This document shows, piece by piece, positions 37,601-61,100 of a stretch of DNA of 64,000 nucleotides (its first letter is position 1; each line of letters starts with the position of its first letter). The position numbers were made by a program, and so were the translations under genes. The notes under the pieces were generated by a model. It did not search any database. It had not been told where the DNA came from and saw nothing but the letters and a program-made list of their open reading frames with translations. Source of the DNA: Cafeteria roenbergensis (taxonomy: Eukaryota > Sar > Bigyra > Bicosoecida > Cafeteriaceae); assembly GCA_008330645.1 (NCBI GenBank), contig VLTN01000025.1, positions 400,772 to 464,771 of the forward strand, in the 5' to 3' direction.

Positions 37601-38959
37601 TCAACGACGCCAGACAGGAGCCCCTGCGGTGGCGCCGACCGCTTCTGCCCCGCGGGCAGCGGGGCCCCCACCCCTGTCGCCGCCGGCCGGCGCACCGACC
37701 CGGCAGAGCCTGTGGACAGGCGGTCACGCCAGCTCCCCTGCCCGCCGGGGTCGTACTGCGTGGGGGGCGTGCAGCAGCTGTGCCCGGCGGGGACGTACGG
37801 CGCGCGGGAGAACGAGACGTCGGCGGGCTGCTCCGGCCCTTGCGCGCCGGGGTACTTTTGCGGCGAGGGCTCGACGACACCGACGCGGTCCCGGTGCGGG
37901 TCAGCGGGGCTGTACTGCCCGCTGGGGTCCGTTCAGCCACTGGTGGTGCCACCGGGGTGGTACAGCACCGGAAGCGCCCTGGATCACGGCCCGAGCGGCG
38001 CCAGTCGACCGGACGACCCGTCCAACTCCACGCGGTCTGCCGTGCTCCGCTGCCCCGTTGGCCACTACTGCACGGAGGGAGTGATCAGGCAGTGCCCGGC
38101 AGGCACCATCGGCAACGCGACAGGGCTTGCCTCCGCCGACTGCGAGCGTCCGTGCCCGGCGGGCTACTTTTGTCCGCCCGGCTCGCTTGCGCCGCTTGAG
38201 TGTGGGGCTGTGTTTGTCAACGCAACGCTGGCCCAGGTACTGGTCAGCAGCGGCGCCGGCTTCGCGGATGCGTATGCCCAGTTTGCCCAGACGGCAGCCG
38301 GGGGCTTTGCCGTCGGCGCTGGCCCTCTCGGAGGAGCGGAAGCCTTGCGCCGCCTTGCCGCCCTCTCGGACGTCCAGAGCGCGACCGACCCGTCGGGGCG
38401 CGGCACCGACACGAGAGTGCTGGCCTGGGAGAGCGGGGGAAGGGGGAAGCTGCCCAGCGTGGTTGCAGACCTGCGGGCGGTGTCCTCGGAGGCGTCGCTG
38501 CCCATTTCTGTGGGACCAGCTGCTGTGTTTTGCCCCAACGCTTCGGGTTGGCCCCGACCCGTGGGGGCCAGCTTCTACTCGACGGGCACTGCAGAGGACG
38601 ACCCGGACCCTCTTCGCAACGCCACCAGGCGGGGCCGGGAGCTGTGCCCCGCCGGCCATTTCTGCATCGCAGGCATCCGGATGCCCTGCCCTCCGGGAAC
38701 CTATGGCGATGCGCCGGGCCTGTCCTCCCACAGGTGCTCCGGCCGCTGCCCAGCGGGGGCGTTCTGCCCGTTGGGCACCTCTGACCCGCAGCCGTGCCCA
38801 GAGGGGACGTTCTCGGCGGGCGCGGCGCATGAGTGTTCGCCGTGTCCCACTGACACGCTCAGCCGCGGGATGTTCGAGGCGCTGGAAGGCCAGCCCAACA
38901 AGCTCCTGGCGTCTCCCCAGGCGCGGTGTCGCACGTCAAGGGCTTGCTGCCAGCTCTGA
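34691..38959 (+). CDS. Secreted cysteine-rich repeat protein (GCC2/GCC3-like)
   Basis: A single exon of 1,422 aa beginning with a signal peptide (MGPRMWLAALSASAAVGASLVAAQ). The body is a string of Cys-rich repeats: CPPGxYCxxG, CPAGTYG, CSGPCAPGYFCxEGSTTPT, CGSAGLYCPxGS and PxGWYSTG. These resemble the ephrin-receptor-like GCC2/GCC3 modules common in surface proteins of protists. Two in-frame low-complexity insertions interrupt this pattern, at about 36068-36720 and 38207-38521. A 306-bp segment is duplicated almost perfectly. No C-terminal membrane anchor is visible, and the protein ends soon after a Cys-rich segment. A downstream exon cannot be excluded, although no strong donor was seen near the stop. 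It is probably secreted or part of the cell surface, and its ligand is unknown. Confidence 0.82.
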   Translation: MGPRMWLAALSASAAVGASLVAAQGAAVDRCRQGAYRSLDPSAAPWREGCAGFVEVQPGYFALDGRRFPCPSGTYSSKPGSLGCEPCAPGYFCEQRFDAETGAVRGSTSATQHPCGSPAVFCAGGNAAPVPVATGFWSVDSAGEATSASAAVRAGQERCPPGSYCRDGERAPCRAGRFGAGWGRSAPDCDGPCASGHFCREGSVSPRQHPCNGALEFCPPGSAAPTPLQKGPDSGPGSLGGGTGAQFTLGSVSDAEVAAGSASLPPPLSAAGERLPPSDASTLTSAVPSAARLCPAGFFCPPGGGGARVPCPPGTFNALTGASSAAACAPCSAGHFCPPASASPTQNRCGATDVYCPAGSAEPLPVGTGNRTVGGGPTTRSAQARCPPGHFCPGDGTARLCSAGTFASLSGQSRCRPCAAGFWCGPGSTSPTEHACGSAAAFCPPGSPSPIAGAEGYYTVRVEPAAAAAAVVAAWSGPAASLGLSGLTGGGGGVGGHGRVAAALRGAPMRLPAEVVSALQQRRAVSLGGAAGVVSPWAWMRRLSQDEAHGGGWWLQAPLAADQAWTLAEGSPLAEASPDGSGSGSGSVAAGSAGGLGALRLGAAAPQHLHPLLALQGGTGIGLEPSARQLLAGEAGSAWSIAWSNGTGPTVAIPPGEPSALAPAVAVFAGVTHDTSRHRSSEARCELGHYCPGDGSRYPCPAGSFGNITGMSAAGQCHTCPAGFRCPEASTAGDAIPCGGADRFCPAGSGAPTPVAAGRRTDPAEPVDRRSRQLPCPPGSYCVGGVQQLCPAGTYGARENETSAGCSGPCAPGYFCGEGSTTPTRSRCGSAGLYCPLGSGHPLPVRRGWYSVGGRTADSGGTSQPDSPLACPSGTGHNDTAALGNDAAPPLTLSLLAPVVVPEPDSRRACRGGPLGDEDTRAGQAPCEPGSFCAAGRRFECPPGRAGTHFEEARPECSELCHAGFFCGWASTTPDRSPCGGADRFCPAGSGAPTPVAAGRRTDPAEPVDRRSRQLPCPPGSYCVGGVQQLCPAGTYGARENETSAGCSGPCAPGYFCGEGSTTPTRSRCGSAGLYCPLGSVQPLVVPPGWYSTGSALDHGPSGASRPDDPSNSTRSAVLRCPVGHYCTEGVIRQCPAGTIGNATGLASADCERPCPAGYFCPPGSLAPLECGAVFVNATLAQVLVSSGAGFADAYAQFAQTAAGGFAVGAGPLGGAEALRRLAALSDVQSATDPSGRGTDTRVLAWESGGRGKLPSVVADLRAVSSEASLPISVGPAAVFCPNASGWPRPVGASFYSTGTAEDDPDPLRNATRRGRELCPAGHFCIAGIRMPCPPGTYGDAPGLSSHRCSGRCPAGAFCPLGTSDPQPCPEGTFSAGAAHECSPCPTDTLSRGMFEALEGQPNKLLASPQARCRTSRACCQL
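36902..37207 (+). repeat. 306-bp duplicated segment, copy 1
   Basis: Almost identical to 37625-37930 (offset 723 bp). It encodes CGGADRFCPAGSGAP through CGSAGLYCPLGS. The two copies differ at only a few silent sites, whereas neighbouring repeats of the same protein are strongly diverged. Confidence 0.9.
37625..37930 (+). repeat. 306-bp duplicated segment, copy 2
   Basis: The second copy of the segment at 36902-37207. Flanking sequence on both sides is unrelated between copies, so the homology is sharply bounded. Confidence 0.9.
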
Positions 38960-39254: not shown

Positions 39255-41831
39255 ATGGTCGACTTTGTGCACAATGCGGCGCCGGTGGACTCGCTCGGCG
39301 TCAGCTTCGTGCTTGCCGTCCTGCCGCTTGCAGTGCTGTTCGTCGCGGTGATCAAGCTCAAGGTGAGAGCGCAACTCAGCACGTGGTGACCCGCAGCTCC
39401 GCAGCGCGAGGAATAGTGGACTTCGACCACCGCCCCGGACAAGCAGCTTCCGGGGCATGCAAGCCGCCACGCTCCCACTGGGGCTAGTTGCACGCGCAAG
39501 CGGGCTGCGAGGACGCGGGGCGTGCGCCCGCGAGCCCGGCGCGCGCTGGCAGGCGAGCCCTCCAGCACTGACTCCAACCTTCTGCGCGCGCGAGCGAGCG
39601 CCTTCCTTTCGCTGCAGGTCATCGTGGCTGCCATACTGGCCCTCGCGACGGCCCTCCTGGTGGCCACACTGGCGTACCGAATGCCGGTGGACATGGCGTT
39701 TCTGGCAGCGGCCGAGGGCGCAATCGTTGGTTTTTTCCCCATCGGCTACATCGTGCTCACTGCGCTCTTCATTTACGACCTTGCCGTGGCAACAAGCGCG
39801 ATTGCCCGGCAACGGGACTTCTTGAAAACGCTGACCTCGGACAAGCGCCTCCTTGCCCTCTTGATCGCCTTGTTCTTCGGCGGGTTCATCGAAGGAGCGG
39901 CCGGCTTTTCAACTCCAGTGGCGCTCGCTACCGCTGTGCTGGCGGGCGTGGGGTTCAACGCCGTAGAGGCGGGAGGGCTTGCCTTGCTCTCCAACACAAT
40001 GCCTGTCGCCTTTGGGGCAGTTGGCACGCCTGTCACTGCGCTTGCCGGCGTGGTTGGCATTCCCATTGCGGTGCTCACCCGTGCGGTCGGCCGACTCCAA
40101 CTTCTGCCGTCGCTCCTGCTTCCGTTCTGGATCGCATGCGCGGCGGCGGGGTCCCTCCGTCGCGGCTTGGAGGTGTGGCCCGCTTGCCTTCTGACGGCCC
40201 TTGTCTACACGGGGTCGCGCACCATCCTGACCGAGTTTGTGGGGCCGCAGCCTGTCGCGGTTGTCGCGTCACTCGCCTCGATGGGCGCGCTCATCGGTTT
40301 GCTCTACTCCGGCTGGAGGCCAAAGTACCCGATGGCGCCCTCCGACTCCGAGCGCCTAGCGGAGGCAAGGGGACCAGACGCCGCCCGGGCCGCGCCCGCA
40401 AAGGGTGAATCCTCGGCTGCGACGGCGTCTCCCGCGGAGCACGATCGCAGAGCCGAGAGCAAAGGCGCTGTGGCTGTGGAGCTGAGCTCTGCAGGTGCAA
40501 TGGCGTCTGAGTCGCGGGGTGCTGCCAGGAACGAAGGCACACCGGCAGGAACGGACGCCTCCGGAGCGAACGGAGAGCCAGTCGCAGACGACACAACTGA
40601 CGACGCACCCTCCTCCCCATCCTTTGTCGCCAAGGTGCAGCGAAGCCTGCGCCGAGGGAGCGGCTTGGACGTCAGCTCCATCACTGCCGTCATCTTTCCT
40701 GATGCCACAGAGCCCGCTGCGGATGGCGAGCCGTGGAGCGGCTCAGCTGATGCCATTGCCCGTGCCACCACACTCCAGCGCAACTTGGCCATTGCGAAGT
40801 CCAATGGCTCAGGATCCACGCAGTCGTCAGCCCATGCCAGCGACGTTGGGTTGGACGACGCCGAAGCGGGTGGCGCCAAGCCCGAAGCAGTGCTCGCAAA
40901 GGAGTGCGATGCGGGCAGTTCAGCAGGTGCTTTGGCCGCAGCACGTCATGTTGAGTCGGCTGCTGCCAAGCGCTGCCACACAAGCAGTTCGGCAATGGAC
41001 CAAGTTCGCGCTTGGTCGGTGTGGCTGGTCGTGGCAGTGCTGGTCATCGTGTGGGCACTTACGCCAGTCCAGCAAGGGCTCTCGTTTGCAACGGTCGTCA
41101 CGCCGCTGGCTGGCCTCGACCGACGCATTGGGCGAGTGGCACCGGACGGCACAGTCCTGCCCCAGCGGGCGATCGTCACGCTGCCGTTCTTGGGCGCGAC
41201 TGGAACGTGCCTGCTACTATCGGCCCTCATCAGTGCCCCAATTCTCGGAGCATCTGTCCCGCTGCTTGGGCGGACGCTCGTCGGAACAGTTCGCCGAGTC
41301 GCGCTCAGTCTTGTGACCATCGCCACGCTGCTGGCGCTTGCGTTTGTGATCCGCCGAAGTGGAGCAGACGGAACGCTTGGCTTGGCGTTCGCAGAGACTG
41401 GCCCAGCATTTCCCTTCGTTGCGCCAATTGTCGGGTGGCTCGGGGTCGCGCTGACGGGGTCTGCAACGTCCAGCAACGTGCTGTTCGGGACGCTCCAGAA
41501 GGTTGCAGCACAGGCTCTCGGCCTCGACCCGATTGTCACGATCGCCGCCTCGGCAGCTGGCGGCCCGCTTGGCGGCATGGTGTCGCTGCAGTCGGTCGTT
41601 GTCGCAGTCGTGGCGACGCAAGGGCTGCAAGGGGCTGGCGAAGGTGGGGTCTCTACTTCGCAATTGCTGCGATTCACGGCTGTTCACAGCATCGCGAGCG
41701 TTTTGGTCTTTGGGCTTTGGACGTTGCTGCTCGCGAACGTTGCAAGCGCGCCAGTGAGCGCCTGCTACACAGCCGAGGGGACGCTGGACTCTCGTGCCCC
41801 GGCTTCCGGGTTCTTTTTGGGCTCCTGCTAG
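39255..41831 (+). CDS. lctP: Lactate permease family (LctP) transporter
   Basis: Two exons, 39255-39362 and 39618-41831, phase 0, 773 aa. The intron is 255 nt with a GTGAGA donor and a GCTGCAG acceptor. Exon 1 encodes the first membrane helix (VSFVLAVLPLAVLFVAVIKLK). The family hallmark follows: FFGGFIEGAAGFSTPVALA, then GFNAVEAGGLALLSNTMPVAFGAVGTPV. Later helices include GWLGVALTGSATSSNVLFGTL and GGPLGGMVSLQSVVVA, both typical of LctP. Bacterial LctP is about 550 aa and imports lactate or glycolate with protons. The extra length here is a hydrophilic Ser/Ala/Glu-rich loop of about 220 residues (~274-496) between the two membrane halves. Substrate and membrane (plasma or mitochondrial) are not decidable from sequence alone. 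Confidence 0.88.
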
Positions 41832-42477: not shown

Positions 42478-45400
42478 ATGAAGCAGCCTTTCGCGTGGCT
42501 GCTCGTGATCGCCGGTGAGAGCTGTCCCCGCGCCCCTTCCCGGTGGCTCCCCGCCTTGCTGCGCATGCCAAACTCTCGCTCCGATCGAGTCATCCCAACG
42601 GGCCCGATGCATGGGACCGCATGGCCGGGAAGCGAGGCCGCGAACGCTGCAGCCACTTGTGCGCGCATGAGCTGCCCCTCCTCGCGACCCCTGGCCTCAC
42701 AGGTGCTCTCTCTGTCAAGGCTCAAGACAGCACAAAGCCAACAGCAACTGTGCAGCCGGTGGTTCGGGCTACAGACGCTCAGGCACTCTCTGTGAACCTG
42801 TTTGGGGACGCGGTGATTTCTGGACTCTCCGACGACACCTCCGCCACGGCGGACCTTGTCGTGACACTTGGAGCAGCAGGGGGCGATAGCGGCCAGCTTA
42901 CCGGCCTCACACTTTCCGCCCCGTGCACATCCGGCTTCAAAAAGCTCGATAGCCCTGGGTGCGTCGTGACAGGGTCATCAGGCGGAACAATTCCGTCAGG
43001 AAATGCCGGGTCACGCAGTTTGGTTCTCACGGTGACTGACGAAGCCGCAAATGCACAGGACTACCCATTCACCCTGATGATCCGGCCCCAGCCGTCGCTG
43101 GCCTTCAGCGGCACCGACGCCGCCGCCGGCACCTCCACGCTCACCGTCACGTGGACGGCCGCCGTGGCGTCGTGGGCCGACCAGTCGAACCTCAACCTCG
43201 TCGGCATCACCTGCGTCGCGCTGACGACGTCGGACAGCGGGGCGACCTACTCGGGCACGTGCACGGCGGACGGCTCCACGGCCGCGCCCCAGGCCTCCAT
43301 CACGACCACGACGTCGCTGGACACGGGGGCGAGCGTCGGCGCGGCGGCCACGTTCACGTACAGGTGAGTCGCGCCCGCACGGGTCCGAGCGGAGGGAGAG
43401 GGCGTTGGCAAGCGCGGGAGGGGCACAGCCGCGAGCGGGGATGCTGGGTTCGCGTCTGTGTATGCGTGCGTGGCAGCGGGCGGGTGCTGGCTGCGCCGCC
43501 ACTCGCCCCGCGACCGACCGTTCGCTCGCGCCTCTCACCCCGTTGCGTTTCGCCCCCGCGCCCTGTGTCCGGCCGCGTCGGCCCTCGAGTGTCCGCAGTC
43601 CGGAGCTGACGGCCGTGGCCCTGCTGCAGGAGAAGACGGGCGGCGGCGACCACAGCACCACCGCCATGGTTGGGCCCAACTCGAACATCTCGCCCAAGCG
43701 GAACATCGAGGTGAAGTTCACCTTTTCGGGCAACATGCAGGGCTTCGATGCAACCGACCTCACCGTGGACGCCGGGTCGCTGACCGGCGTGTCCGTCGTG
43801 CCGGACACCGCCGCCGCGACCGAGGACACGGCGTGGTACTTCGTCCTCACGCTCCCCGACGCCACCGACACGGACATCGTCCTCACGCTGGCGCTGACGG
43901 GGAGCACCGTGACCTTCACCGCGGCCGGCAGCCTCAACGTGCAGACCGTGCGACTGGACATGACGCCGCCGTCCATCACCGTGGGCGCAGCGCCGCAGTA
44001 CCGCGCCACGTCCCTGCAGGCCTTCTCGCAGGCCCTGGCCACGGGCGCGAGCACGTTCCAGGTCACGGACACGACGGACGACGCCAAGTCCAACACCCTC
44101 ACTCTGTCGCTCGTGGCGCTGAGCGCGGGCGGGCTGGAGGCGGCAGCGGCCTGCTCGAGCTTCGAGCACACCGGCGCCGGGGTGCCGACCTGCATCATCT
44201 CCGGGACGGATGCGTCCGATGTCATCCCGAGCGGCAACGAGGCCGATCGGACCTTCACGCTGCGCGCGACGGACACTGCTGGCAACTACGCCGAGGACAC
44301 CATCACGGTGCGCGTGCGGCCCCAGCCGTCGCTGGCCTTCAGCGGCACCGACGCCGCCGCCGGCACCTCCACGCTCACCGTCACGTGGACGGCGGCCGTG
44401 GCGTCGTGGGCCGACCAGTCGAACCTCAACCTCGTCGGCATCACCTGTGTCGCGCTGACGACGTCGGACAGCGGGGCGACCTACTCGGGCACGTGCACGG
44501 CGGACGGCTCCACGGCCGCGCCCCAGGCCTCCATCACGACCACGACGTCGCTGGACACGGGGGCGAGCGTCGGCGCGGCGGCCACGTTCACGTACAGGTG
44601 AGTCGCGCCCGCATGGGTCCGAGCGGAGGGAGAGGGCGTTGGCAAGCGCGGGAGGGGCACAGCCGCGAGCGGGGATGCTGGGTTCGCGTCTGTGTATGCG
44701 TGCGTGGCAGCGGGCGGGTGCTGGCTGCGCCGCCACTCGCCCCGCGACCGACCGTTCGCTCGCGCCTCTCACCCCGTTGCGTTTCGCCCCCGCGCCCTGT
44801 GTCCGGCCGCGTCGGCCCTCGAGTGTCCGCAGTCCGGAGCTGACGGCCGTGGCCCTGCTGCAGGAGAAGACGGGCGGCGGCGACCACAGCACCACCGCCA
44901 TGGTTGGGCCCAGCTCGAACATCTCGCCCAAGCGGAACATCGAGGTGAAGTTCACCTTTTCGGGCAACATGCAGGGCTTCGATGCAACCGACCTCACCGT
45001 GGACGCCGGGTCGCTGACCGGCGTGTCCGTCGTGCCGGACACCGCCGCCGCGACCGAGGACACGGCGTGGTACTTCGTCCTCACGCTCCCCGACGCCACC
45101 GACACGGACATCGTCCTCACGCTGGCGCTGACGGGGAGCACCGTGACCTTCACCGCGGCCGGCAGCCTCAACGTGCAGACCGTGCGACTGGACATGACGC
45201 CGCCGTCCATCACCGTGGGCGCAGCGCCGCAGTACCGCGCCACGTCCCTGCAGGCCTTCTCGCAGGCCCTGGCCACGGGCGCGAGCACGTTCCAGGTCAC
45301 GGACACGACGGACGACGCCAAGTCCAACACCCTCACTCTGTCGCTCGTGGCGCTGAGCGCGGGCGGGCTGGAGGCGGCAGCGGCCTGCTCGAGCTTCGAG

Positions 45401-48400
45401 CACACCGGCGCCGGGGTGCCGACCTGCATCATCTCCGGGACGGACGCGTCCGACGTCATCCCGAGCGGCAACGAGGCCGATCGGACCTTCACGCTGCGCG
45501 CGACGGACACTGCTGGCAACTACGCCGAGGACACCATCACGGTGCGCGTGCGGCCCCAGCCGTCGCTGGCCTTCAGCGGCACCGACGCCGCCGCCGGCAC
45601 CTCCACGCTCACCGTCACGTGGACGGCCGCCGTGGCGTCGTGGGCCGACCAGTCGAACCTCAACCTCGTCGGCATCACCTGCGTCGCGCTGACGACGTCG
45701 GACAGCGGGGCGACCTACTCGGGCACGTGCACGGCGGACGGCTCCACGGCCGCGCCCCAGGCCTCCATCACGACCACGACGTCGCTGGACACGGGGGCGA
45801 GCGTCGGCGCGGCGGCCACGTTCACGTACAGGTGAGTCGCGCCCGCATGGGTCCGAGCGGAGGGAGAGGGCGTTGGCAAGCGCGGGAGGGGCACAGCCGC
45901 GAGCGGGGATGCTGGGTTCGCGACTGTGTATGCGTGCGTGGCAGCGGGCGGGTGCTGGCTGCGCCGCCACTCGCCCCGCGACCGACCGTTCGCTCGCGCC
46001 TCTCACCCCGTTGCGTTTCGCCCCCGCGCCCTGTGTCCGGCCGCGTCGGCCTCGAGTGTCCGCAGTCCGGAGCTGACGGCCGTGGCCCTGCTGCAGGAGA
46101 AGACGGGCGGCGGCGACCACAGCACCACCGCCATGGTTGGGCCCAGCTCGAACATCTCGCCCAAGCGGAACATCGAGGTGAAGTTCACCTTTTCGGGCAA
46201 CATGCAGGGCTTCGATGCAACCGACCTCACCGTGGACGCCGGGTCGCTGACCGGCGTGTCCGTCGTGCCGGACACCGCCGCCGCGACCGAGGACACGGCG
46301 TGGTACTTCGTCCTCACGCTCCCCGACGCCACCGACACGGACATCGTCCTCACGCTGGCGCTGACGGGGAGCACCGTGACCTTCACCGCGGCCGGCAGCC
46401 TCAACGTGCAGACCGTGCGACTGGACATGACGCCGCCGTCCATCACCGTGGGCGCAGCGCCGCAGTACCGCGCCACGTCCCTGCAGGCCTTCTCGCAGGC
46501 CCTGGCCACGGGCGCGAGCACGTTCCAGGTCACGGACACGACGGACGACGCCAAGTCCAACACCCTCACTCTGTCGCTCGTGGCGCTGAGCGCGGGCGGG
46601 CTGGAGGCGGCAGCGGCCTGCTCGAGCTTCGAGCACACCGGCGCCGGGGTGCCGACCTGCATCATCTCCGGGACGGACGCGTCCGACGTCATCCCGAGCG
46701 GCAACGAGGCCGATCGGACCTTCACGCTGCGCGCGACGGACACTGCTGGCAACTACGCCGAGGACACCATCACGGTGCGCGTGCGGCCCCAGCCGTCGCT
46801 GGCCTTCAGCGGCACCGACGCCGCCGCCGGCACCTCCACGCTCACCGTCACGTGGACGGCGGCCGTGGCGTCGTGGGCCGACCAGTCGAACCTCAACCTC
46901 GTCGGCATCACCTGTGTCGCGCTGACGACGTCGGACAGCGGGGCGACCTACTCGGGCACGTGCACGGCGGACGGCTCCACGGCCGCGCCCCAGGCCTCCA
47001 TCACGACCACGACGTCGCTGGACACGGGGGCGAGCGTCGGCGCGGCGGCCACGTTCACGTACAGGTGAGTCGCGCCCGCATGGGTCCGAGCGGAGGGAGA
47101 GGGCGTTGGCAAGCGCGGGAGGGGCACAGCCGCGAGCGGGGATGCTGGGTTCGCGTCTGTGTATGCGTGCGTGGCAGCGGGCGGGTGCTGGCTGCGCCGC
47201 CACTCGCCCCGCGACCGACCGTTCGCTCGCGCCTCTCACCCCGTTGCGTTTCGCCCCCGCGCCCTGTGTCCGGCCGCGTCGGCCCTCGAGTGTCCGCAGT
47301 CCGGAGCTGACGGCCGTGGCCCTGCTGCAGGAGAAGACGGGCGGCGGCGACCACAGCACCACCGCCATGGTTGGGCCCAGCTCGAACATCTCGCCCAAGC
47401 GGAACATCGAGGTGAAGTTCACCTTTTCGGGCAACATGCAGGGCTTCGATGCAACCGACCTCACCGTGGACGCCGGGTCGCTGACCGGCGTGTCCGTCGT
47501 GCCGGACACCGCCGCCGCGACCGAGGACACGGCGTGGTACTTCGTCCTCACGCTCCCCGACGCCACCGACACGGACATCGTCCTCACGCTGGCGCTGACG
47601 GGGAGCACCGTGACCTTCACCGCGGCCGGCAGCCTCAACGTGCAGACCGTGCGACTGGACATGACGCCGCCGTCCATCACCGTGGGCGCAGCGCCGCAGT
47701 ACCGCGCCACGTCCCTGCAGGCCTTCTCGCAGGCCCTGGCCACGGGCGCGAGCACGTTCCAGGTCACGGACACGACGGACGACGCCAAGTCCAACACCCT
47801 CACTCTGTCGCTCGTGGCGCTGAGCGCGGGCGGGCTGGAGGCGGCAGCGGCCTGCTCGAGCTTCGAGCACACCGGCGCCGGGGTGCCGACCTGCATCATC
47901 TCCGGGACGGACGCGTCCGACGTCATCCCGAGCGGCAACGAGGCCGATCGGACCTTCACGCTGCGCGCGACGGACACTGCTGGCAACTACGCCGAGGACA
48001 CCATCACGGTGCGCGTGCGGCCCCAGCCGTCGCTGGCCTTCAGCGGCACCGACGCCGCCGCCGGCACCTCCACGCTCACCGTCACGTGGACGGCGGCCGT
48101 GGCGTCGTGGGCCGACCAGTCGAACCTCAACCTCGTCGGCATCACCTGTGTCGCGCTGACGACGTCGGACAGCGGGGCGACCTACTCGGGCACGTGCACG
48201 GCGGACGGCTCCACGGCCGCGCCCCAGGCCTCCATCACGACCACGACGTCGCTGGACACGGGGGCGAGCGTCGGCGCGGCGGCCACGTTCACGTACAGGT
48301 GAGTCGCGCCCGCACGGGTCCGAGCGGAGGGAGAGGGCGTTGGCAAGCGCGGGAGGGGCACAGCCGCGAGCGGGGATGCTGGGTTCGCGTCTGTGTATGC

Positions 48401-51400
48401 GTGCGTGGCAGCGGGCGGGTGCTGGCTGCGCCGCCACTCGCCCCGCGACCGACCGTTCGCTCGCGCCTCTCACCCCGTTGCGTTTCGCCCCCGCGCCCTG
48501 TGTCCGGCCGCGTCGGCCCTCGAGTGTCCGCAGTCCGGAGCTGACGGCCGTGGCCCTGCTGCAGGAGAAGACGGGCGGCGGCGACCACAGCACCACCGCC
48601 ATGGTTGGGCCCAACTCGAACATCTCGCCCAAGCGGAACATCGAGGTGAAGTTCACCTTTTCGGGCAACATGCAGGGCTTCGATGCAACCGACCTCACCG
48701 TGGACGCCGGGTCGCTGACCGGCGTGTCCGTCGTGCCGGACACCGCCGCCGCGACCGAGGACACGGCGTGGTACTTCGTCCTCACGCTCCCCGACGCCAC
48801 CGACACGGACATCGTCCTCACGCTGGCGCTGACGGGGAGCACCGTGACCTTCACCGCGGCCGGCAGCCTCAACGTGCAGACCGTGCGACTGGACATGACG
48901 CCGCCGTCCATCACCGTGGGCGCAGCGCCGCAGTACCGCGCCACGTCCCTGCAGGCCTTCTCGCAGGCCCTGGCCACGGGCGCGAGCACGTTCCAGGTCA
49001 CGGACACGACGGACGACGCCAAGTCCAACACCCTCACTCTGTCGCTCGTGGCGCTGAGCGCGGGCGGGCTGGAGGCGGCAGCGGCCTGCTCGAGCTTCGA
49101 GCACACCGGCGCCGGGGTGCCGACCTGCATCATCTCCGGGACGGACGCGTCCGACGTCATCCCGAGCGGCAACGAGGCCGATCGGACCTTCACGCTGCGC
49201 GCGACGGACACTGCTGGCAACTACGCCGAGGACACCATCACGGTGCGCGTGCGGCCCCAGCCGTCGCTGGCCTTCAGCGGCACCGACGCCGCCGCCGGCA
49301 CCTCCACGCTCACCGTCACGTGGACGGCCGCCGTGGCGTCGTGGGCCGACCAGTCGAACCTCAACCTCGTCGGCATCACCTGTGTCACGCTGACGACGTC
49401 GGACAGCGGGGCGACCTACTCGGGCACGTGCACGGCGGACGGCTCCACGGCCGCGCCCCAGGCCTCCATCACGACCACGACGTCGCTGGACACGGGGGCG
49501 AGCGTCGGCGCGGCGGCCACGTTCACGTACAGGTGAGTCGCGCCCGCACGGGTCCGAGCGGAGGGAGAGGGCGTTGGCAAGCGCGGGAGGGGCACAGCCG
49601 CGAGCGGGGATGCTGGGTTCGCGACTGTGTATGCGTGCGTGGCAGCGGGCGGGTGCTGGCTGCGCCGCCACTCGCCCCGCGACCGACCGTTCGCTCGCGC
49701 CTCTCACCCCGTTGCGTTTCGCCCCCGCGCCCTGTGTCCGGCCGCGTCGGCCCTCGAGTGTCCGCAGTCCGGAGCTGACGGCCGTGGCCCTGCTGCAGGA
49801 GAAGACGGGCGGCGGCGACCACAGCACCACCGCCATGGTTGGGCCCAGCTCGAACATCTCGCCCAAGCGGAACATCGAGGTGAAGTTCACCTTTTCGGGC
49901 AACATGCAGGGCTTCGATGCAACCGACCTCACCGTGGACGCCGGGTCGCTGACCGGCGTGTCCGTCGTGCCGGACACCGCCGCCGCGACCGAGGACACGG
50001 CGTGGTACTTCGTCCTCACGCTCCCCGACGCCACCGACACGGACATCGTCCTCACGCTGGCGCTTGACGGACCTTCGGCAACCTTCACCGCGGCCGGCAG
50101 CCTCAACGTGCAGACCGTGCGACTGGACATGACGCCGCCGTCCATCACCGTGGGCGCAGCGCCGCAGTACCGCGCCACGTCCCTGCAGGCCTTCTCGCAG
50201 GCCCTGGCCACGGGCGCGAGCACGTTCCAGGTCACGGACACGACGGACGACGCCAAGTCCAACACCCTCACTCTGTCGCTCGTGGCGCTGAGCGCGGGCG
50301 GGCTGGAGGCGGCAGCGGCCTGCTCGAGCTTCGAGCACACCGGCGCCGGGGTGCCGACCTGCATCATCTCCGGGACGGACGCGTCCGATGTCATCCCGAG
50401 CGGCAACGAGGCCGATCGGACCTTCACGCTGCGCGCGACGGACACTGCTGGCAACTACGCCGAGGACACCATCACGGTGCGCGTGCGGCCCCAGCCGTCG
50501 CTGGCCTTCAGCGGCACCGACGCCGCCGCCGGCACCTCCACGCTCACCGTCACGTGGACGGCGGCCGTGGCGTCGTGGGCCGACCAGTCGAACCTCAACC
50601 TCGTCGGCATCACCTGTGTCGCGCTGACGACGTCGGACAGCGGGGCGACCTACTCGGGCACGTGCACGGCGGACGGCTCCACGGCCGCGCCCCAGGCCTC
50701 CATCACGACCACGACGTCGCTGGACACGGGGGCGAGCGTCGGCGCGGCGGCCACGTTCACGTACAGGTGAGTCGCGCCCGCACGGGTCCGAGCGGAGGGA
50801 GAGGGCGTTGGCAAGCGCGGGAGGGGCACAGCCGCGAGCGGGGATGCTGGGTTCGCGTCTGTGTATGCGTGCGTGGCAGCGGGCGGGTGCTGGCTGCGCC
50901 GCCACTCGCCCCGCGACCGACCGTTCGCTCGCGCCTCTCACCCCGTTGCGTTTCGCCCCCGCGCCCTGTGTCCGGCCGCGTCGGCCCTCGAGTGTCCGCA
51001 GTCCGGAGCTGACGGCCGTGGCCCTGCTGCAGGAGAAGACGGGCGGCGGCGACCACAGCACCACCGCCATGGTTGGGCCCAACTCGAACATCTCGCCCAA
51101 GCGGAACATCGAGGTGAAGTTCACCTTTTCGGGCAACATGCAGGGCTTCGATGCAACCGACCTCACCGTGGACGCCGGGTCGCTGACCGGCGTGTCCGTC
51201 GTGCCGGACACCGCCGCCGCGACCGAGGACACGGCGTGGTACTTCGTCCTCACGCTCCCGACGCCACCGACACGGACATCGTCCTCACGCTGGCGCTGAC
51301 GGGGAGCACCGTGACCTTCACCGCGGCCGGCAGCCTCAACGTGCAGACCGTGCGACTGGACATGACGCCGCCGTCCATCACCGTGGGCGCAGCGCCGCAG

Positions 51401-54400
51401 TACCGCGCCACGTCCCTGCAGGCCTTCTCGCAGGCCCTGGCCACGGGCGCGAGCACGTTCCAGGTCACGGACACGACGGACGACGCCAAGTCCAACACCC
51501 TCACTCTGTCGCTCGTGGCGCTGAGCGCGGGCGGGCTGGAGGCGGCAGCGGCCTGCTCGAGCTTCGAGCACACCGGCGCCGGGGTGCCGACCTGCATCAT
51601 CTCCGGGACGGACGCGTCCGACGTCATCCCGAGCGGCAACGAGGCCGATCGGACCTTCACGCTGCGCGCGACGGACACTGCTGGCAACTACGCCGAGGAC
51701 ACCATCACGGTGCGCGTGCGGCCCCAGCCGTCGCTGGCCTTCAGCGGCACCGACGCCGCCGCCGGCACCTCCACGCTCACCGTCACGTGGACGGCGGCCG
51801 TGGCGTCGTGGGCCGACCAGTCGAACCTCAACCTCGTCGGCATCACCTGTGTCGCGCTGACGACGTCGGACAGCGGGGCGACCTACTCGGGCACGTGCAC
51901 GGCGGACGGCTCCACGGCCGCGCCCCAGGCCTCCATCACGACCACGACGTCGCTGGACACGGGGGCGAGCGTCGGCGCGGCGGCCACGTTCACGTACAGG
52001 TGAGCGCCTTTGTCGATGCCTCACTTTTCACTTGTCGCGTTCGCCCACTCCCGTGCAGGATTCGTGCCTTCTACATGTCTCGGTTCAGTCCCTTGCTCAA
52101 GCAATTGGTCCTGTTCATGCCGTGTTCATTCTTGTGCCCTGGTCTTCGCAGTCCGAAGCTGACGTCGATGACCGTTGTGGACACATTCGATGCACCTTTG
52201 AAGGGCCCCGGGGCTGACATCATCAAGTCCCAGGCTGTTAAGGTCATCGCTGTCTTTGCGGGCAAGATGCAGGGCTTGTCTACCGGGTCGCTCGCCGGCT
52301 TCGCTGACGCTGCTCAAGTGGCGAGCATCGACCCCTCTAGCGGCGTGGGGACCAGCTTCACCTTTGCCGTGACACTCGACGATGCTGACTCGACAACAAT
52401 CACTCTGGGCCTGTCTGCGCCCACGCTGGCCTTCACAAATGCAGCCGCAGTATCCAATTCTCTCACGGTGTGGTACGATTCGACGGATCCCACGGTGACT
52501 GCAGCAACCATCGCTGCGGGAGAGTTTCACATTCTTGCCACGGATGACTTTGCATTCAGCTTCACGTTCGTGACTACGGCTGGAGCATTGCACGCAGATG
52601 CAAGTCAGGCCTTTGCCGCGCTTGAGGATACTGCTCCATTCCAAACAGCCGACCTCACTCTCACCATCACTGGAAAGACAGTTTCCGATGCTTCAGGACT
52701 AAGCCTGGCTGGGTGTACCGGGGCAAAGTTCTCGTCAGGGTGCTCCATCGCAGGCTCTGCAGCTGGCAGCATCCCGGCCGGGGAATCTGGGGATCGCACT
52801 TTGGTGATGGAGGCAGTCGACCTGTCAGGGCGAGCAAGCAGCGCTGAGTTCACGCTGCAGATCCGCGTGCGGCCGACACTGACACTCTCCACAGTCGATG
52901 CAAAGGCCGGCACCTATTCCATCACTGTCGACTGGTCACAAGCTGTTTCTGGCTTTTTGACGAGCCACCTGACACTCCAGGGCCTGACTTGTGGCTCGCT
53001 CACATCCAGCCTCGCGGACAAGCGGTACTCTGGTGACTGCATCGCGACTGGAACGCATGCGACAGTTGGCGTTAGCCTAGCGGCTGCACTCTCTGGCGTG
53101 TCCCCCACGACGGAGCTTGCCTCTCAAGTGACCAAGCCCTACACCCCGGAACTGACTGCCATCGAGCTCATCGACACCGATTCGCCGGCAGCGGCCCTGC
53201 GCGGTCTCCACGAGAACATTACCCCCAACCTGGGCATCGCCATTCGCTTCACCTTCACAGGCAAGATGTCCGGTCTCACTGCGTCCGACGTCAATGTGGC
53301 CGGGGATGACAGTGGAGTGCCAACAGTTGCTGAGCCAGTTGCCTCCTCGGAAGCCAAGGTGCACACGTTTGGCATCACCCTCGACAGCGCCGACGTTGCG
53401 ACGACCATTTCGCTGCCCCTTGGGGCAAGCGACGCTCCCTTCTCGTGGACTTCCGCCTCGGCAGAAACAACGGTCTACTACGATGTGACGGCCCCGACCG
53501 CCACACTTTCCGCAAGCGACTTTTTCCTCACAGATGGATCCGAAAATCAAGTCCTTGACATTGTGACCCAAGTCCTGGCAAGCATTTCGGACAATATTTC
53601 ACCGACTTCCCGCATCATTCTGGATGCTTCCTCTGACCCTGACGTCTCCGGTGTCCTCTCTCTCAGTGCCTGCAGCAGGTCCCAGCACCAAGTTGGCTGC
53701 CTGATCAAGGGCGCGGCCGCCTCCAACAAGATTCCTCCAGACAACACCGGTGTGTCCACCATCACCCTTTTGGTCGAAGACGAGGCCGGAAACTCCCTCG
53801 AGCTCGAGTTCTTCCTCGTCCGTCAGGCAGTCATTGCGTTCACGGCTGACCAGTCGAAATTGTCCAAGAGCGGACATTTTGCTCCCTTTAACAACCCTGT
53901 GGGCACTCGGCGGAGCTTTTCGGAAGACCTTTCGAGCATATGCACGTCCTCCTCGCAGCCCGACGACATCGTGGTGACAATTGCCTTGACGGACGCCGCA
54001 GGTGCACAGAGTGCCAACTGCGAAACGGTCAGCGGCGTCACGCAGTCTGCAACCCCAGGCCCGTCGATCAGCTGCAATTTTGACCAGCAAGGGACTGTAC
54101 GATGGAGCGTGGTGTGTTCGGAGTCACTTGGTGACCCTGAAAATCATGCTGACGTCCCAGCTTCGACGTCAGGCACGTGGGCGATTGTTGAGCAGAAACG
54201 GCCAGCCGTTTCCGCGTCAGGAACCTTCTACTACCTGGAGAACGCCGGCAACAAGCTGCTCAGCGACGAGATCACTTTTGCCATTTCAGACACAGAGGAT
54301 TCTGACCTGCGATTCGTCACAGTCACGAGGGAGGACTGTGCGGTTGGCAAGGACCAGCTTGGCATCGGGGCAACTCCCCCCGCAACCGTCACCGCAACGG

Positions 54401-57400
54401 TTGAGGCCGACCAGTGCGTCATTACGATCGTGCCAGCGCACCCAGCCACGGAGGCACCCATCGGAGACTTTCTGCAAGTCCTCAATGCCGTCACTTTCAC
54501 GCACGTGTCTGACAATCCCAACAGAACGCTGGGTGTCACCATCACGGTCAACGTGACAGACGACGCCGGCGGGGAGGCGGGCACGCCACCATCGTACGCT
54601 CTCTCGCAGTCTTCGACAATCCACTTCGAGATCACGGAGCTCAACGACGAGCTTGGCTTGCTCGTGCAGTCTGGCGCCTCCAATGAGTCATCCCTGTCCT
54701 TGGCTGACACGCAGCTGCGCATGACGGAGCATCCAGACGACGGCAAGTGCTTGTACGACAGCAACGGGGATGATGTGGTTATTGTCATTGAGGACGTTGA
54801 CACGATCCAGGACGGGCGCCCGGGAACTGCCCAGCTCGACGACGTGGGCTTGAAGCTGCTTGAATGGCCAGGCAGCGGAGCTATGCCCGACACGGAGCTT
54901 TGGTCCGTGGTCAGTCAGGGTGACCCCGCGACGTCACCTACCACCAAGACAGGCTCATCCCTCGTGCCAGGCTCACAGGAACACTTCGTGTTCCAGCAGT
55001 TCAAGGTTTGCATCACGCCTCGCGGCGAGCTCGGGTCTGCAGGCGTGCGGCGTCAAACTTGGCAAACCCTGGACTTTGAAAATTTGCAGCCCTCCGAGTT
55101 CAGCGGATTCCGGCCGGCAGACAAAAAGTACCCCCTTCGTTTCCGCGCGTCCAGCCCCTCCGGAAAGAACGTTCGCGAGTTCACGCTGTGGTACCAGGTC
55201 ACCGATGTGGAGCATGAGAAGCCTCACTTCTTCCACCCTGATGCTGGCGTCACAAACTCCGAAGGCATCCGGTCGGGATTCCTAGGCCTGCAGTGCTCCA
55301 GGGAGTTTTACCGCAGCTCCTTGCAGTCGCCGTACACGTTGCAGGACTCCCAGCTCAACGTGGCAACTGGGAATATCCGGGCTGACGTGGCCAAGGTCAA
55401 CTTGTACCGAGAGCCTGCCTACACAGCCGGCGAAGCACACCATGTGGTGTACGCCCCGATCGACTTCGTTCACGGCATGTTCAATAGGAAGGAGATCCGC
55501 ACAAGCACTGTCGTGGTCGATCCCGACGAGATCGGCAGCTTGGTGTTGTCCATCCGCTTCTTGGGCGAATGGACCAAGGCTGCCACGCCCGGCAACTCCA
55601 CTGCGATGCATGCAGCGAACGAGACCCTGGCCGCAGGGCAAGAGAGCAGCCTTGGCGGTGTGTTCTCGAATAAGACCGCATTCGGGTTCATGATGACCCA
55701 CAACTCTACCCATATTGTGCTCACAGGAGCGCCCCAGTACGGCCCCGAGTACAACATGAGTCGCGCGCTCTCAGAAGTGTCGTCCCCGCGGTCCCGTCGC
55801 TTTGGGTTCAGCCTCGTCGCGACGCATGCTGTCACTGGCCTGGTTGCAGAGCGCGACTTTTTGGTGGACATTGAGGTGCGGGGCTGCATGGACATCCGCG
55901 GCGCCTATGCGGACGGCCCGAACAGGGAGTTTCTACCCGCTGATTCAGACTTTGTGATGCCTCCGAAGTCTGAGCTTGCAAAGTACGACGACCTGGCGGC
56001 GTCCGGCTGGCGCAACCCCAGCGGCAACTTCAACCCCAATGCCACCATTCCGGCCTTGTGCACGTTTCCTCCTCGGGCAGTGGCGACCACCGAGACGTCC
56101 ACTTTTGCACTGACCGGAGCGCGCACAGAGACGACTGCAGCGGAGCTGGAGTCGGCGCTCAAGGCCTCCCCTACGGATGACAACATCGAGCAAGCGCGCG
56201 GCTTCGTGGCTCTCGAGGTCCCGCCTGGAGCCATCACGGAGCCCATTCCCATCGAGGTGTCTGGTGTGACTGACGACGTGGCCCTGGCTGTGGCTCCTCC
56301 CAAGGAAGACGCAATCGTGACCACAGACCTGACGCTCAAGTTGGGGCCCTGTGGACAGCAGTTTGAGCGGTCGCTGCAAGTGTGCATTTTCGTCGGCGCG
56401 GCGCAACCCGGAAGGTACTTCACCATCTACCACGCCCCTGCCGTGAACTGCGAGCTCCCCGAGCTTGGCTACGCGGAGTTCCAGCCCACCTCCGAGACTT
56501 CCTACAACCCAGCCACGGGGAAAGCTTGCGGCTCCATCTCAACCTTCTCGATCGTCTCAGGTGTCAGTCTCCTCATCCCGCAGACATCGCAGCTTGAGTC
56601 GCGCTTCCTGGAGGCGGGTGGAGGCTGCCCGCGAGACTGCTCCGGAAACGGCGAGTGCTTGGCCTACTCGAAGTGCAGCTGCTTCCAAGGTTGGACTGGC
56701 TACGACTGCGCCAGCCGAACCTGCCCGGCCGCAGACGCGTGGGCCATCAACCTTGTTGCTCCAAAGCAATCGGCCGAATGCTCGAACAAGGGCGCGTGCA
56801 ACCGGATCACGGGCGAGTGCGAGTGCGAGCCGGGCTTCGAGGGCTCGGCGTGCCAGCGGATGGGGTGCCCGAGCGATTGCTCAGGCCACGGGCGCTGCCG
56901 CTATCTGGCCGACCTTCCTCAAGTCTCCTCTCAGAAGCAGTTGGAGTACGCCTGGGAAGGCGACCGAATCAGCACGTGCATGTGCGACCCGGGCTACGGG
57001 GGCCCTGACTGCTCAGTCAGGATGTGCCCTTTCGGCGACGACCCTGCCTCTCATTGCGCTTCAAACGGCTTCGCCAAGTTCAAGGCCACGCTTGCAGTCC
57101 CAATTTCGGAGGCAGCAGCGTCAGGCAGTGCCTATCCCGGGCCAGGGGTGACATGGGCGGTGCAGTCCGCGTCTCTGGTTCTGGAGGTTGCCGCAAAGCA
57201 CGGGTCCCAGTTCACGACGAGACCAGTCAACGGCCTGCTGGGGGCGGCAGCCGCGTCCGAGGCAGACGTCATCAGCGGCGTTGAGTCGGCGCTCCAGGCG
57301 CTCCCCAACTTCCACGTAGACGACGCTGTGATCGTGACAGACTCGCTGAGCGCGGGCGGCGAGATCCGGCAAGTGTCGCTCGAGATGGCCGGCTACCAGA

Positions 57401-57984
57401 ACGCGGGCGACATGCTGAGTGTCTCCTGCCCGGCACCGTACGGGTGCGCTGAGCCGGGTTGCCGTCCGCGCTACCGGCAGCCCCTGTTGTCGGCTGAAGA
57501 CGTTGTTGGCTCAGACATCGCGCTTGATGCCCTGGGCATCATCAAGCCACCCAGCTCCGCCAATGGCATCGCGGTTAAGGTATCCGTGGCCTCGACCGCA
57601 ACCTACGCGGGGGCGGCCGTCAAGACGTTTGAAGTGACCATCTGCCCCCTGGTGGCCACGTCTGCGGCCATCACGGAGACAACTGGCGACTGCGCAGTTT
57701 CGGTGGCCCAACGGCCCGTGCCCTCTTCGCGTGCTCTGGACAAGAGCGCTGCCGTGGGCATGGGGGCGAAAATCAAGTTCCGGAGCGCCGCACCTGCGGA
57801 CGGCGCCTACAACTTCTACCTCATCCCAGGCACGTGCGCTGTCGAACGCATCCGGCCCTCGGGCGCCGATCGTCGCAGCACCGAGTGCTCCAGCCGCGGC
57901 GTCTGCGACCGATCCACGGGCATGTGCAAGTGCTTCGACGAGTTTGAGGGAGACAGCTGCTCGCTTGTGCCGCTAACCGTGTGA
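42478..57984 (+). CDS. Giant secreted Ig-like repeat protein with ZU5-like and EGF-like regions
   Basis: Ten exons: 42478-42514, 42703-43363, seven repeat exons (43599-44597, 44833-45831, 46066-47064, 47300-48298, 48534-49532, 49768-50766, 51002-51999) and 52152-57984. All junctions from exon 2 on are phase 2. The signal peptide (MKQPFAWLLVIAG, then ALSVKAQ) is split by intron 1. Each 333-residue repeat has two parts resembling bacterial Ig-like domains (VKFTFSGNMQGFDATDLTV; LTVTWTAAVASWADQSNLNL). The last exon has two more diverged repeats, a cadherin-like region (~54200-54660), a ZU5-like segment (LEVPPGAITEPIPIEVS, ~56210) and EGF-like repeats (CSGNGECLAYSKCSCFQGWTG, ~56635, and CSSRGVCDRSTGMCKC near the end). 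No membrane helix is seen. An adhesive surface role is inferred. One base is missing in repeat exon 7: as written, translation stops at 51299 after 2,329 aa. Without the deletion it would be about 4,500 aa. Confidence 0.8.
43364..51999 (+). repeat. Tandem array of seven 1,234-bp intron+exon units
   Basis: Units start at 43364, 44598, 45832, 47065, 48299, 49533 and 50767. Each is a 235-nt intron (GTGAGT...GTCCGCAG) followed by a 999-nt exon. Unit 3 has a 234-nt intron (CC instead of CCC at 46050-46051) and unit 7 a 998-nt exon (51257). Copies are near-identical in intron and exon alike. The few variable sites (GCACGG/GCATGG, CGTCTG/CGACTG, CCCAACTCG/CCCAGCTCG, GATGTC/GACGTC, TGCGTCGCG/TGTGTCGCG/TGTGTCACG) occur in different combinations in different copies. 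The end of exon 2, from about 43083, belongs to the same homogenised family. Confidence 0.97.
51257..51259 (+). other. One-base deletion in repeat exon 7 (frameshift)
   Basis: The other six copies read CTCCCCGACG here, whereas copy 7 has CTCCCGACG. The frame then reaches a TGA at 51297-51299. The downstream exon (52152-57984) is intact and in the frame expected without the deletion, so an assembly or homopolymer error is the simplest reading. Confidence 0.9.
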
Positions 57985-58139: not shown

Positions 58140-61100
58140 TCAATCAGAGTCGCTTCCCGAGTCCGTGTCAACTCGCAACGTGTCATCCGTGGAGTCCGTG
58201 TGGTGTCCAGCATCATCGTCTGCAGCGGCAAGGTGACGGGCAAGCGATGCTGCGCCGATGGCCTCCAGAGCGGAAACGTTGACTCCGGCAGCGAGCTCAG
58301 AGGGGTCCATGAACAGCACAGATCCCGACTTCATCCGTCTTGCCCGGATGACTTGAAGCTCTTCGGCCAGAGCAGCCGTCATGGTGTCGTCACCTTCATT
58401 GTCGCCCTCGAGCGCCACCGCAAGCGGTTGATCGTTTCGGACGTTGCCGTGCGCGTGCGCCCACCGCTTGCCTCGCGCTGCTGTAAGGCTGGTGGTGCTG
58501 CCGCCGAACTCTGCCTGGGGCCGCTCAATGACCCCTCGCGTTGTCGGCGGCTGCGCGAATTCTTCCCTAAACGGAGCCACGCCTGGCTCGTCGCCTCGAG
58601 CGGAAGTTGGCGCAACGCTTCCCGACGCTTGAAGCCTGGACGCAATGGCGGCAACCTGCAGTTGGGCTGAGCTCATGCCGTGGCGGTAGTCTCTGTCCTC
58701 AGTATAAAAGGTGAACTCGCCGCGAGAAGCCAACACGGACGCAATCGAGGAGCCCTCGGCCCCGGCAGCCCTTGAGTACCTGCCATGGTGACGGGAGCGA
58801 TGCGTCGAGGCGCGAGATACCCGTGCAGCGCTGGGCACAACCGAGCCTCTCGTGGAAAGACGGTTGGCCTCCGCTGCGACGAACGGCGACCCCCTCTCAG
58901 TGCTGGCTCGCCTCTGTGCACGGCGGCTGCTGTGGCCATGGCTGGAGCTCTGGTGCCCGTGCCCGTGCCCGTGCCCGTGCCCGTTCCCGTTCCCGTGCCC
59001 GTGCCCGTGGTAGTGATGGTGGTGCCCGTGGTGGTGGTGGTGGTGCCCGTGGTGGTGGTGGTGGTGGTGCCGGGCGTGCAGTCGGCGCCGCATAGCCAGC
59101 TCGTCAGAGTGGTCGTGACCGTCGGAGCTGGACGGATCCCCGACCAAAATCTGCCTCCATGGGACGATGAAGAGCAGCCTTGCCGTGACAAGCGCCGCCC
59201 ACTCAGCCTGGAGGCTGGGCACCTGGATCCCGACCAACAGCAGCAGGACTGCAGACACCGCCAGCAACGCCACGTCGGCAGAGCGCCAGGCAACTCGCAC
59301 TGCCGTGTCCGTGTCCACGCAGGCGCCGAAGCACCAGCACCCGCAGCATGCAGAGGCCCTCTTGGAAGGCGAGGAGCTGCTGCCGGCAGAGCCATGCTCG
59401 CTGGCGATGCGGCCGCCGTACTCAGCCATGGCGATGTCCTCGAAGTCCCGCTCCAGGGCCAGGGCGTGAATGGCTGCCATCTCCGAAGGGGTTGGCGACA
59501 CGAGCACGGCACAGCGGCCGGTGCAGATGTACGCGGCCGATCCCGCGCACCGGATGAGCAACTCCATCAGCATCAGCGATCCGCAGACGAGAGACATAAT
59601 GGACCCCACGCCAACCGCGCCGCTGCCCACCTCGCTAATGACGTGCACCTCCGTCTGCAAGACAGCCGATGCGGCGCCCACCGCAATGACGATGAACACA
59701 CCGGCGCGCCAGAGCCGGGAGCGCGATAGCAAGTCGCCCAGCCGCGCGACGAACCCGGCGCAGCCGCCAGGCCGGTAGCGCTTCAACGCGATCCTGGCCG
59801 GCGCAGCCTGCACCTTGATGAACGGGCTGGCCCCGCCCCCCCCCGGGTTATGCCTCTCAGAGGCGCTGTGCGATGGGCCACCCATGGCGGCCTTGGCGCT
59901 CTGCATCCCCGTCGCCCACCCGCCGCTGCCAGCCGCGGCTGGTTCAGCCTGCAGCTCAGCGGACAGCTCCTCAGCGCCGATTCGGCCGGCGCCGGCGCCA
60001 CTGCCGTCAGCTCCACCCTCGCACCTGCCTCCACAGTCCTCCTCGCCGTCGTCGTCGCCGTCGTCCTGGTCGTCATCGTCGCTGTCCGTGTCGTTAGCGT
60101 CCTCCCCAAACACGGCCGGCAGAGCCTCGGAAGAGCACCAGTCACCAGCCGCCGACCACCTGTCCCTAGCCGACCACCAGCACCGCCGCAGAGACTTGCA
60201 CCCGCCACACGGCCTGCCCTGGGCGGTTCCCAGCCTCGCCTCCTCCTCCTCCTCCTGCTCCTGCTGACGCTGTTGCTGAACCTGCTGCTGCTCCAGTTCC
60301 AGCTCCTCCTCCTCTGAGTCGCTGAGCGACACATCGTCGCTGAACGCAGCCAGCAGCGCCTCTCTCGCGCGCCGGGGCAGTTTCAGCGCCTGGTCCTCCG
60401 GCAGCCCGGCAAGCAGCGCCGCCCACTCGTCGCGAGACAGGTCTCGCGCGGGATCCGGGCCGGACACGGGCGAGGCTGCGATGGGCGATCCTGGAAGGGC
60501 CGGGTTTCCGCCTGTGAGGACGGCCCGTGCCTGGTCCGGACGCCAGCCGGAACCGCCGGCAGAGCCCCAGAAAGCCCCTTCGATGGGAAGGGGCGTGGCC
60601 GATCGGGACACGGACCCGCCCAGGGCCGCTTCCACGGCAAGAGAGAGGCCGCCGGCACCGCTGGCGCCGTCGCCGCCTCCGTGGTGGCCCCGCTCAGAGC
60701 CCGCCGGCGTGCCTGCCACTGTGCCGTACCCGACGAGGGACGAGCTTCGCGGAACGTTGATGGTGCTGTGCCGGTGGGAAGGGCGGCCGTCATCGTCCTC
60801 GAAGCCGCGAGGCGGCTGGAGGCCGTGGGTGTGGCCCGCCGGGGCTCGCACTGGCGGCGGCGCCAGAAGCCGACGGCGCCCGCCCTCGGCAACCGCACTG
60901 CCCGCGTCGCCCACGCCGTGGCCCACGCTGAGGGAGTGAGCGGGGATACCCACGCCAACGGCTGCAACGGGGGCGGAGCCGTGCGTGCGGTGCTCGCCGC
61001 TCCGATGAGCAGGCGGCAGAGCCAGGCCCAGGCCGAGGGAAGCACTCTCCGCCCCTGCCCCCAGTCCAGGGGGCTGGGACGCTGCCGACTCGCTAACAAC

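Follow-up and report, generated by a model that had tools for sequence, protein, structure and literature searches.

Near-identical intron+exon units bounded by silent GC steps in a Cafeteria gene for a putative mastigoneme-related protein

How does a row of repeat units, each carrying a complete intron, come to be almost uniform inside a single gene? The question is raised by a 64,000-nucleotide stretch of the Cafeteria roenbergensis genome (assembly GCA_008330645.1, contig VLTN01000025.1, positions 400,772 to 464,771), referred to here as the window and used as the coordinate system throughout. The host is a marine bacteria-eating flagellate. A first-pass annotation of the window, made from the letters alone, had noted seven near-identical units in one gene and proposed that the array is either very young or kept uniform. 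We think it probable that the array is kept alike by GC-biased exchange between its units, and that the gene codes for a very large, probably secreted and possibly mastigoneme-related protein.

Array anatomy and silent GC at its edges

Seven units, each an intron followed by an exon, lie head to tail at 43364-51999 (Table 1), and their donor positions, lengths and alignment bear out the first-pass description. The first base of each unit in the table is a splice donor; the next donor, that of intron 8, is not of the array type. The annotated bounds hold for the seven units, but the left start lies earlier: exon 2 ends in a 281-bp partial unit that differs from unit 1 at two positions, so that the true array start is 43083. 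Similarity to the array ends abruptly, at 43082 on its left side and, on its right side, after the first five bases of intron 8 (edges 43083 and 52004); past these five bases no similarity between intron 8 and the array intron was detected. The array introns measure 235 nt, except for the 234-nt intron of unit 3, and six of the seven array exons measure 999 nt. All array introns are phase 2, and the codon offset at the start of each array exon is 2; with exon and intron phases thus symmetric, gain or loss of a unit is harmless to the frame. The frame-neutral, 999-nt exons of the first-pass annotation are therefore found in six of seven cases, the seventh having 998 nt and a frame that is broken as written. 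A DNA search of the whole genome with the unit (167 contigs, 36,303,456 bases; match counts from whole-genome searches are lower bounds) gave at least seven full copies and at least one partial copy, every listed match lying within the array, and no second locus for the unit among the matches listed. The 11 protein matches listed all fall inside this gene. From the whole-genome match listing, the array is neither a product of chance nor low-complexity sequence.

The gene model starts at the ATG at 42478 and joins exon 1 (to 42514), exon 2 (42703-43363), the seven array exons and exon 10 (52152-57984). Several acceptors of exon 2, that at 42703 among them, are compatible with the open frame. 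The array acceptor is supported by the diverged repeat in exon 10, which runs through the equivalent place (53145/53146) without an intron (PYT-PELTAIEL, against TYR-PELTAV in the array). Owing to the 998-nt length of the seventh array exon, the reading frame breaks at about 51254-51257 as written. On either side of the break exon 9 stays open in the frames predicted by the other six exons, and so does exon 10 over its 5.8 kb. The break is a probable, though not proven, assembly error.

Table 1. Features of the gene and its array (window coordinates; GC3, GC content at third codon positions; Ig, immunoglobulin; EGF, epidermal growth factor).
Feature	Position	Strand	Length (bp)	Details
Exon 1	42478..42514	+		Start codon and signal-peptide-like stretch MKQPFAWLLVIAGALSV... 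(by eye)
Exon 2, unique part	42703..43082	+		Divergent Ig-like domain 2; GC3 0.595
Unit 0 (partial)	43083..43363	+	281	Domain 3; GC3 1.0; homogenised array begins here
Unit 1	43364..44597	+	1234	Intron 43364-43598, exon 43599-44597 (999 nt)
Unit 2	44598..45831	+	1234	Intron 44598-44832, exon 44833-45831
Unit 3	45832..47064	+	1233	Intron 45832-46065 (234 nt), exon 46066-47064
Unit 4	47065..48298	+	1234	Intron 47065-47299, exon 47300-48298
Unit 5	48299..49532	+	1234	Intron 48299-48533, exon 48534-49532
Unit 6	49533..50766	+	1234	Intron 49533-49767, exon 49768-50766; 12-site cluster 50065-50080
Unit 7	50767..51999	+	1233	Intron 50767-51001, exon 51002-51999 (998 nt; C run one base shorter at about 51254-51257)
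Intron 8	52000..52151	+	152	GC 0.546; equivalent repeat position
Exon 10, start	52152..53820	+		Two divergent unit copies, the second without domain 3
Exon 10, middle region	53821..56592	+
C-terminal EGF module	56593..57984	+		Followed by TGA; homologous to tubular-mastigoneme OCM5 and others (PDB 9ufe)

Alignment of the seven units revealed two single-nucleotide variants (SNVs) and one single-base indel in the intron. The exon contained six SNVs, one single-base deletion and a cluster of 12 sites present in unit 6 only. With the cluster and the indels left out, mean pairwise divergence was 0.28% overall, 0.45% in the intron and 0.24% in the exon, and the rate of variable sites did not differ between intron and exon (Fisher p = 0.65). 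Introns of nearly zero divergence, as claimed in the first-pass annotation, are thus confirmed, and they vary at a rate like that of the exons. Read on the six 999-nt exons, four of the exon SNVs are synonymous and the other two replace an amino acid. In the four-gamete test on the 8 SNVs outside the cluster, 5 of 28 site pairs failed, a sign of exchange between units if polishing did not mix the copies. The unit-6 cluster converts LTGSTVTF to LDGPSATF with length and frame unchanged; a search for its donor found a 24-base pattern taken from it at no other place in the genome, allowing up to 2 mismatches. The units are 99.72% alike on average, which we set beside the genome-wide average nucleotide identity of 99.05-99.67% reported between C. 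burkhardae strains (PMC6972860) as support for homogenisation.

The composition of silent sites changes at the edges of the array. At the left edge, GC3 rises from 0.595 over the 126 exon 2 codons before 43083 to 1.0 over the next 93, and the best single change point in exon 2 is 43068, 15 nt from the edge. The array exons have GC3 values of 0.95-0.97, and the two divergent units of exon 10 have 0.64 and 0.70; compared unit against unit, GC3 on the right side drops from 0.96 in the array to 0.64 in exon 10 unit 1. GC at first and second codon positions (GC1/GC2), taken over whole units, hardly changes: 0.575/0.59 for the array, 0.56/0.57 for exon 10 unit 1. Intron GC also falls at the right edge, from 0.75 in the array to the value of intron 8. 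The steps are one-directional. Among identical residues, with M and W excluded and unit 1 standing for the array, positions with a third base of G or C in the array and of A or T in the flank outnumbered the reverse by 37:0 for exon 10 unit 1, 23:3 for exon 10 unit 2 and 15:1 for exon 2, compared with 19:17 and 15:12 in flank-flank controls. None of 4,213 control pairs of 93-codon blocks reached a GC3 difference of 0.36 (maximum 0.247), and the left array edge measures 0.38; the control blocks, drawn from exon 10, the paralogues on contigs C26 and C65 and a lactate permease frame, overlap and hence are not independent. Silent and intronic GC is raised in the presumed exchanging copies relative to the flanking ones, as GC-biased gene conversion requires.

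The encoded protein and its relatives

The product, with its pieces summed, has about 4,500 residues. Its N-terminus is hydrophobic and signal-like as judged by eye, and a 19-residue hydropathy scan of the product found no clear membrane helix, the highest value (1.57) lying in the repeats. Phytophthora mastigoneme proteins are reported to carry a signal peptide and no membrane helix (PMC12223298).

Judging from sequence and a structural model, each array exon probably encodes a triplet of Ig-like segments rich in beta structure. The bacterial Ig-like family Big_12 (Pfam PF19078) is matched by two stretches of the unit at 27.4 bits, barely over the gathering cut-off of 27, and the exon 2 and exon 10 proteins score 15.1 and 15.4 bits, under the cut-off. 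The other segments are assigned from the alignment of the repeats and a weak all-beta model. Diverged relatives of the unit flank the array: the exon 10 copies are 31-35% identical to it in amino acid sequence, and the unique part of exon 2 shares 40 identical residues (M and W uncounted) among 115 aligned. The array is thus one multiplied triplet of an older repeat. A search of NCBIfam returned 0 families for three proteins, and Pfam gave no match at E 0.01 in the part 54193-56592 of the middle region. From 54193 onward the gene is shared with a paralogue on contig C26 (46% over 1256 residues); in this paralogue tblastn finds only one repeat-like domain ahead of the shared part. No tandem repeat with a period of 100-5000 was found in 29 paralogue loci (3.1-6.8 kb, partial genes, several overlapping) or in the three longer C26 and C65 stretches that were also scanned.

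Over its last 463 residues the product is similar to the tubular-mastigoneme chains of PDB 9ufe, with an E value of 4.6e-46 to OCM5 for the single sequence (3.9e-45 in a separate single-sequence search). A profile of five Cafeteria C-terminal modules matched OCM5 at 1.2e-69, covering the EGF cluster, the beta region and the last EGF. The 'surface protein' of the first-pass annotation can be narrowed, since the C-terminal module matches the 9ufe chains, to a secreted and possibly flagellar-hair-related protein. The family has many members in this genome, with 37 matches scored out of 59 candidates, one being the query itself. Viral contigs contained no relative of the module and no match to the array intron pattern. 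Mastigoneme-like EGF frames lie close together at C20:424907-436198, C16:577383-578963, C41:112969-114708 and C19:87223-105047, which suggests gene clusters of the family.

Elsewhere in the window, upstream of the gene, frames at 39417-41831 and from 32861 correspond to L-lactate permease (PF02652, E 2.7e-100) and aldehyde dehydrogenase (PF00171, E 1e-50). Positions 36878-37150, inside the long frame 32861-38959, match themselves at a lag of 723 with at least 85% identity. Simple hexamer and 21-bp repeats occur at 33522-33742 and 58953-59069 (CCTGCG; GTGCCC with GTG runs).

Accounts of the near-identity

We propose that an ancient, diverged Ig-like triplet would already have been repeated in the gene before the array arose. 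One triplet, together with the phase-2 intron ahead of it, would have been amplified by unequal exchange between homologous repeats, and recurrent unequal crossing-over and GC-biased gene conversion would have kept the copies alike since, conversion raising silent and intronic GC within the array and not in the flanking repeats. Allele lengths probably differ, units being frame-neutral to gain or lose. The protein would probably be a long extracellular rod of Ig-like segments, which its C-terminal module may attach to surface assemblies of the mastigoneme (flagellar hair) type or to related ones. Biased conversion would explain at once why silent and intron GC is raised, why the rise stops where the array does and why the units are nearly identical, and the array would then be old. 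Of the two origins offered in the first-pass annotation, our analysis leans to 'kept uniform', because the silent sites and introns of the array are GC-richer than the flanking repeats and the following intron.

Several observations weigh against this proposal. The 8 SNVs outside the cluster are too few to display a GC bias within the array, and short-read polishing may blend copies and could also create mosaic variants. As written, the seventh array exon does not keep the frame. Compared on adjacent 93-codon blocks, GC3 at the right edge falls from 0.99 to 0.74, a difference of 0.247 that equals the largest control value, itself derived partly from exon 10. Across the left edge GC1 changes from 0.62 to 0.53 and GC2 from 0.56 to 0.71, because the two sides encode different domains. 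Intron 1, which lies outside the array, has a GC of 0.697, nearer to that of the array introns than the GC of intron 8 is. GC3 reaches at least 0.95 in 2 of 29 paralogue rows (some overlapping), so the array value is within the range of the genome; in a genome of about 70% GC, a founder unit rich in GC would give the same picture. As to the protein, the AlphaFold model of the unit, made with five window sequences, is all-beta and of too low a quality for use (mean pLDDT, the predicted local distance difference test score, 54.5), and Foldseek returned no match at E 0.001 or better. When the C-terminal module without its EGF part was searched by phmmer at E up to 10, no mastigoneme chain came up; the single-sequence match to OCM5 therefore reflects mainly how the EGFs are arranged, and for the remainder the profile is what counts.

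The strongest competitor, which we hold to be possible but distinctly less probable, is a recent burst of tandem duplication from a founder whose GC was high from the outset, such as a converted or imported unit, so that likeness merely means youth. The low divergence of 0.28% would fit such a burst, as would the paralogue rows of equally high GC3; yet the 8 DNA and 11 protein matches listed all lie in this gene and show no outside donor (a distant or lost one could be missed), mosaicism appears in 5 of 28 site pairs, and 7.2 units with a left part ending inside exon 2 are unlike a simple duplication of one segment. Overall, a long-lived array kept homogeneous by GC-biased conversion or unequal exchange is better supported than a recent burst. 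Could the array instead be partly a product of assembly, its copy number and near-identity distorted and its one-base indels errors? We consider this unlikely. Of the 8,618 300-mers in the array, only 2,542 occur in it once, and both one-base losses sit in C runs. The assembly of C. burkhardae (roenbergensis) strain BVI, almost certainly the source strain, has 70.1% GC and was built by Canu from raw PacBio reads and polished by Racon with PacBio and then Illumina reads (PMC6972860). In Sanger checks of selected virophage elements from the same assemblies, indels and substitutions were reported, and fragmentation of conserved genes was not confirmed for those elements (PMC8547959). Against such an origin stand the distinct variants that units carry, including the private 12-site cluster in unit 6, and an artefact would not account for the silent GC step. 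The existence of some array is hardly in doubt; the number seven is.

The frame break has also to be considered as real, in which case the gene would be decaying and its product would end without the C-terminal module. The seventh exon is 998 nt as written and, continued in frame, meets stops, but against this the remainder of exon 9 is open, as is exon 10 over 5.8 kb, with conservation in the paralogue over 1256 residues, and one-base losses in homopolymers are common among long-read errors; decay is accordingly improbable to our minds. Far more doubtful still is programmed intron retention, by which the TGA codons at the donors would be used to make shorter products of various lengths. The first-pass annotation was right that an in-frame TGA is present: AGG TGA is read in translation at the first array donor and implied at the others by equal offset and the shared TACAGGTGAG. 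There is nothing special in this, however, because any AG|GTGA donor in this phase gives TGA. A retained 235-nt intron, not being a multiple of three, would shift the frame anyway, and a message stopped mid-gene would be a target of decay. The donor TGAs are no evidence of regulation, and neither biased conversion nor a young burst needs intron retention. As a separate matter, an introner element was considered and rejected: the intron has at least seven matches in the genome, all listed ones inside the array, and no inverted-repeat signal was seen in the array intron, 75 of 300 shuffles scoring as high.

Relation to known systems

If GC-biased homogenisation holds, this one gene may, more tentatively, serve as a natural experiment that sets exchanging against non-exchanging copies of a repeat, with a silent GC gap of about 0.3-0.4, a left step within about 15 bases of the edge, and exchange that varies the length of a hair-type protein among alleles and strains. 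The flanking repeats provide an internal control, and the silent GC step lets one ask whether recombination pushes the 70% GC of the genome. Should copy number vary, the locus would offer a tractable link between a variable number of tandem repeats (VNTR) and an extracellular structure in a marine grazer that is grown in the laboratory. Homogenised intron+exon arrays are known in animals; our literature searches for precedents, which were not built to exclude one, listed none from a protist or from a mastigoneme-type gene.

The C-terminal module resembles stramenopile tubular-mastigoneme proteins (Ocm, Sig1; 9ufe) in that its EGF cluster, beta region and last EGF align nearly end to end with OCM5. 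Sig1 orthologues are reported on stramenopile mastigonemes (PMC8027222). The chains of 9ufe have 209-748 residues, whereas the product here has about 4,500, with a long Ig-like region in front.

The array has two traits of an intron+exon VNTR: near-identical head-to-tail units with whole introns, and symmetric-phase exons, six of seven at 999 nt. A close reported parallel is the human LPA KIV-2 VNTR, which also consists of tandem near-identical coding units including introns, between diverged homologous flanks. Up to 40 KIV-2 repeats per allele are reported, with 2-36 measured in the plasma protein, and the KIV-2 edge is blurred in a way that can be likened to the array edge, the second exon of KIV-1 being identical to that of KIV-2 (PMC11201333). 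Unlike the array, KIV-2 has 5.6-kb units of two exons each, proven allele length variation and an unrelated protein. The MaSp2 silk genes of Argiope (and also flagelliform silk) are similar in having nearly identical small introns between similar exons, the repeated MaSp2 introns showing an average similarity of 97.6% (range 94.3-99.7%) (PMC9779670). They are described as animal silk repeats, in some cases with two alternating intron types; here there is one type, in a protist, between exons for probable Ig-like segments. The same silk authors limited short-read correction to indels in order to avoid artificial homogenisation (PMC9779670), a caution that applies here because the assembly was polished with short reads and so few array 300-mers are unique.

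GC-biased conversion among repeated copies also has precedents. Galtier, in 2003, reportedly described GC-biased gene conversion for mammalian histones. In ribosomal DNA (rDNA), elevated GC has been ascribed to recombination among copies with GC-biased conversion (PMC6562748). Conversion in those systems acts between genes or between rDNA units, whereas here it would act within one gene, with homologous unconverted flanks as the control. The type of array is thus already known from LPA KIV-2 and the silk genes and its setting is new; new here, too, are the one-directional silent GC steps at the array edges.

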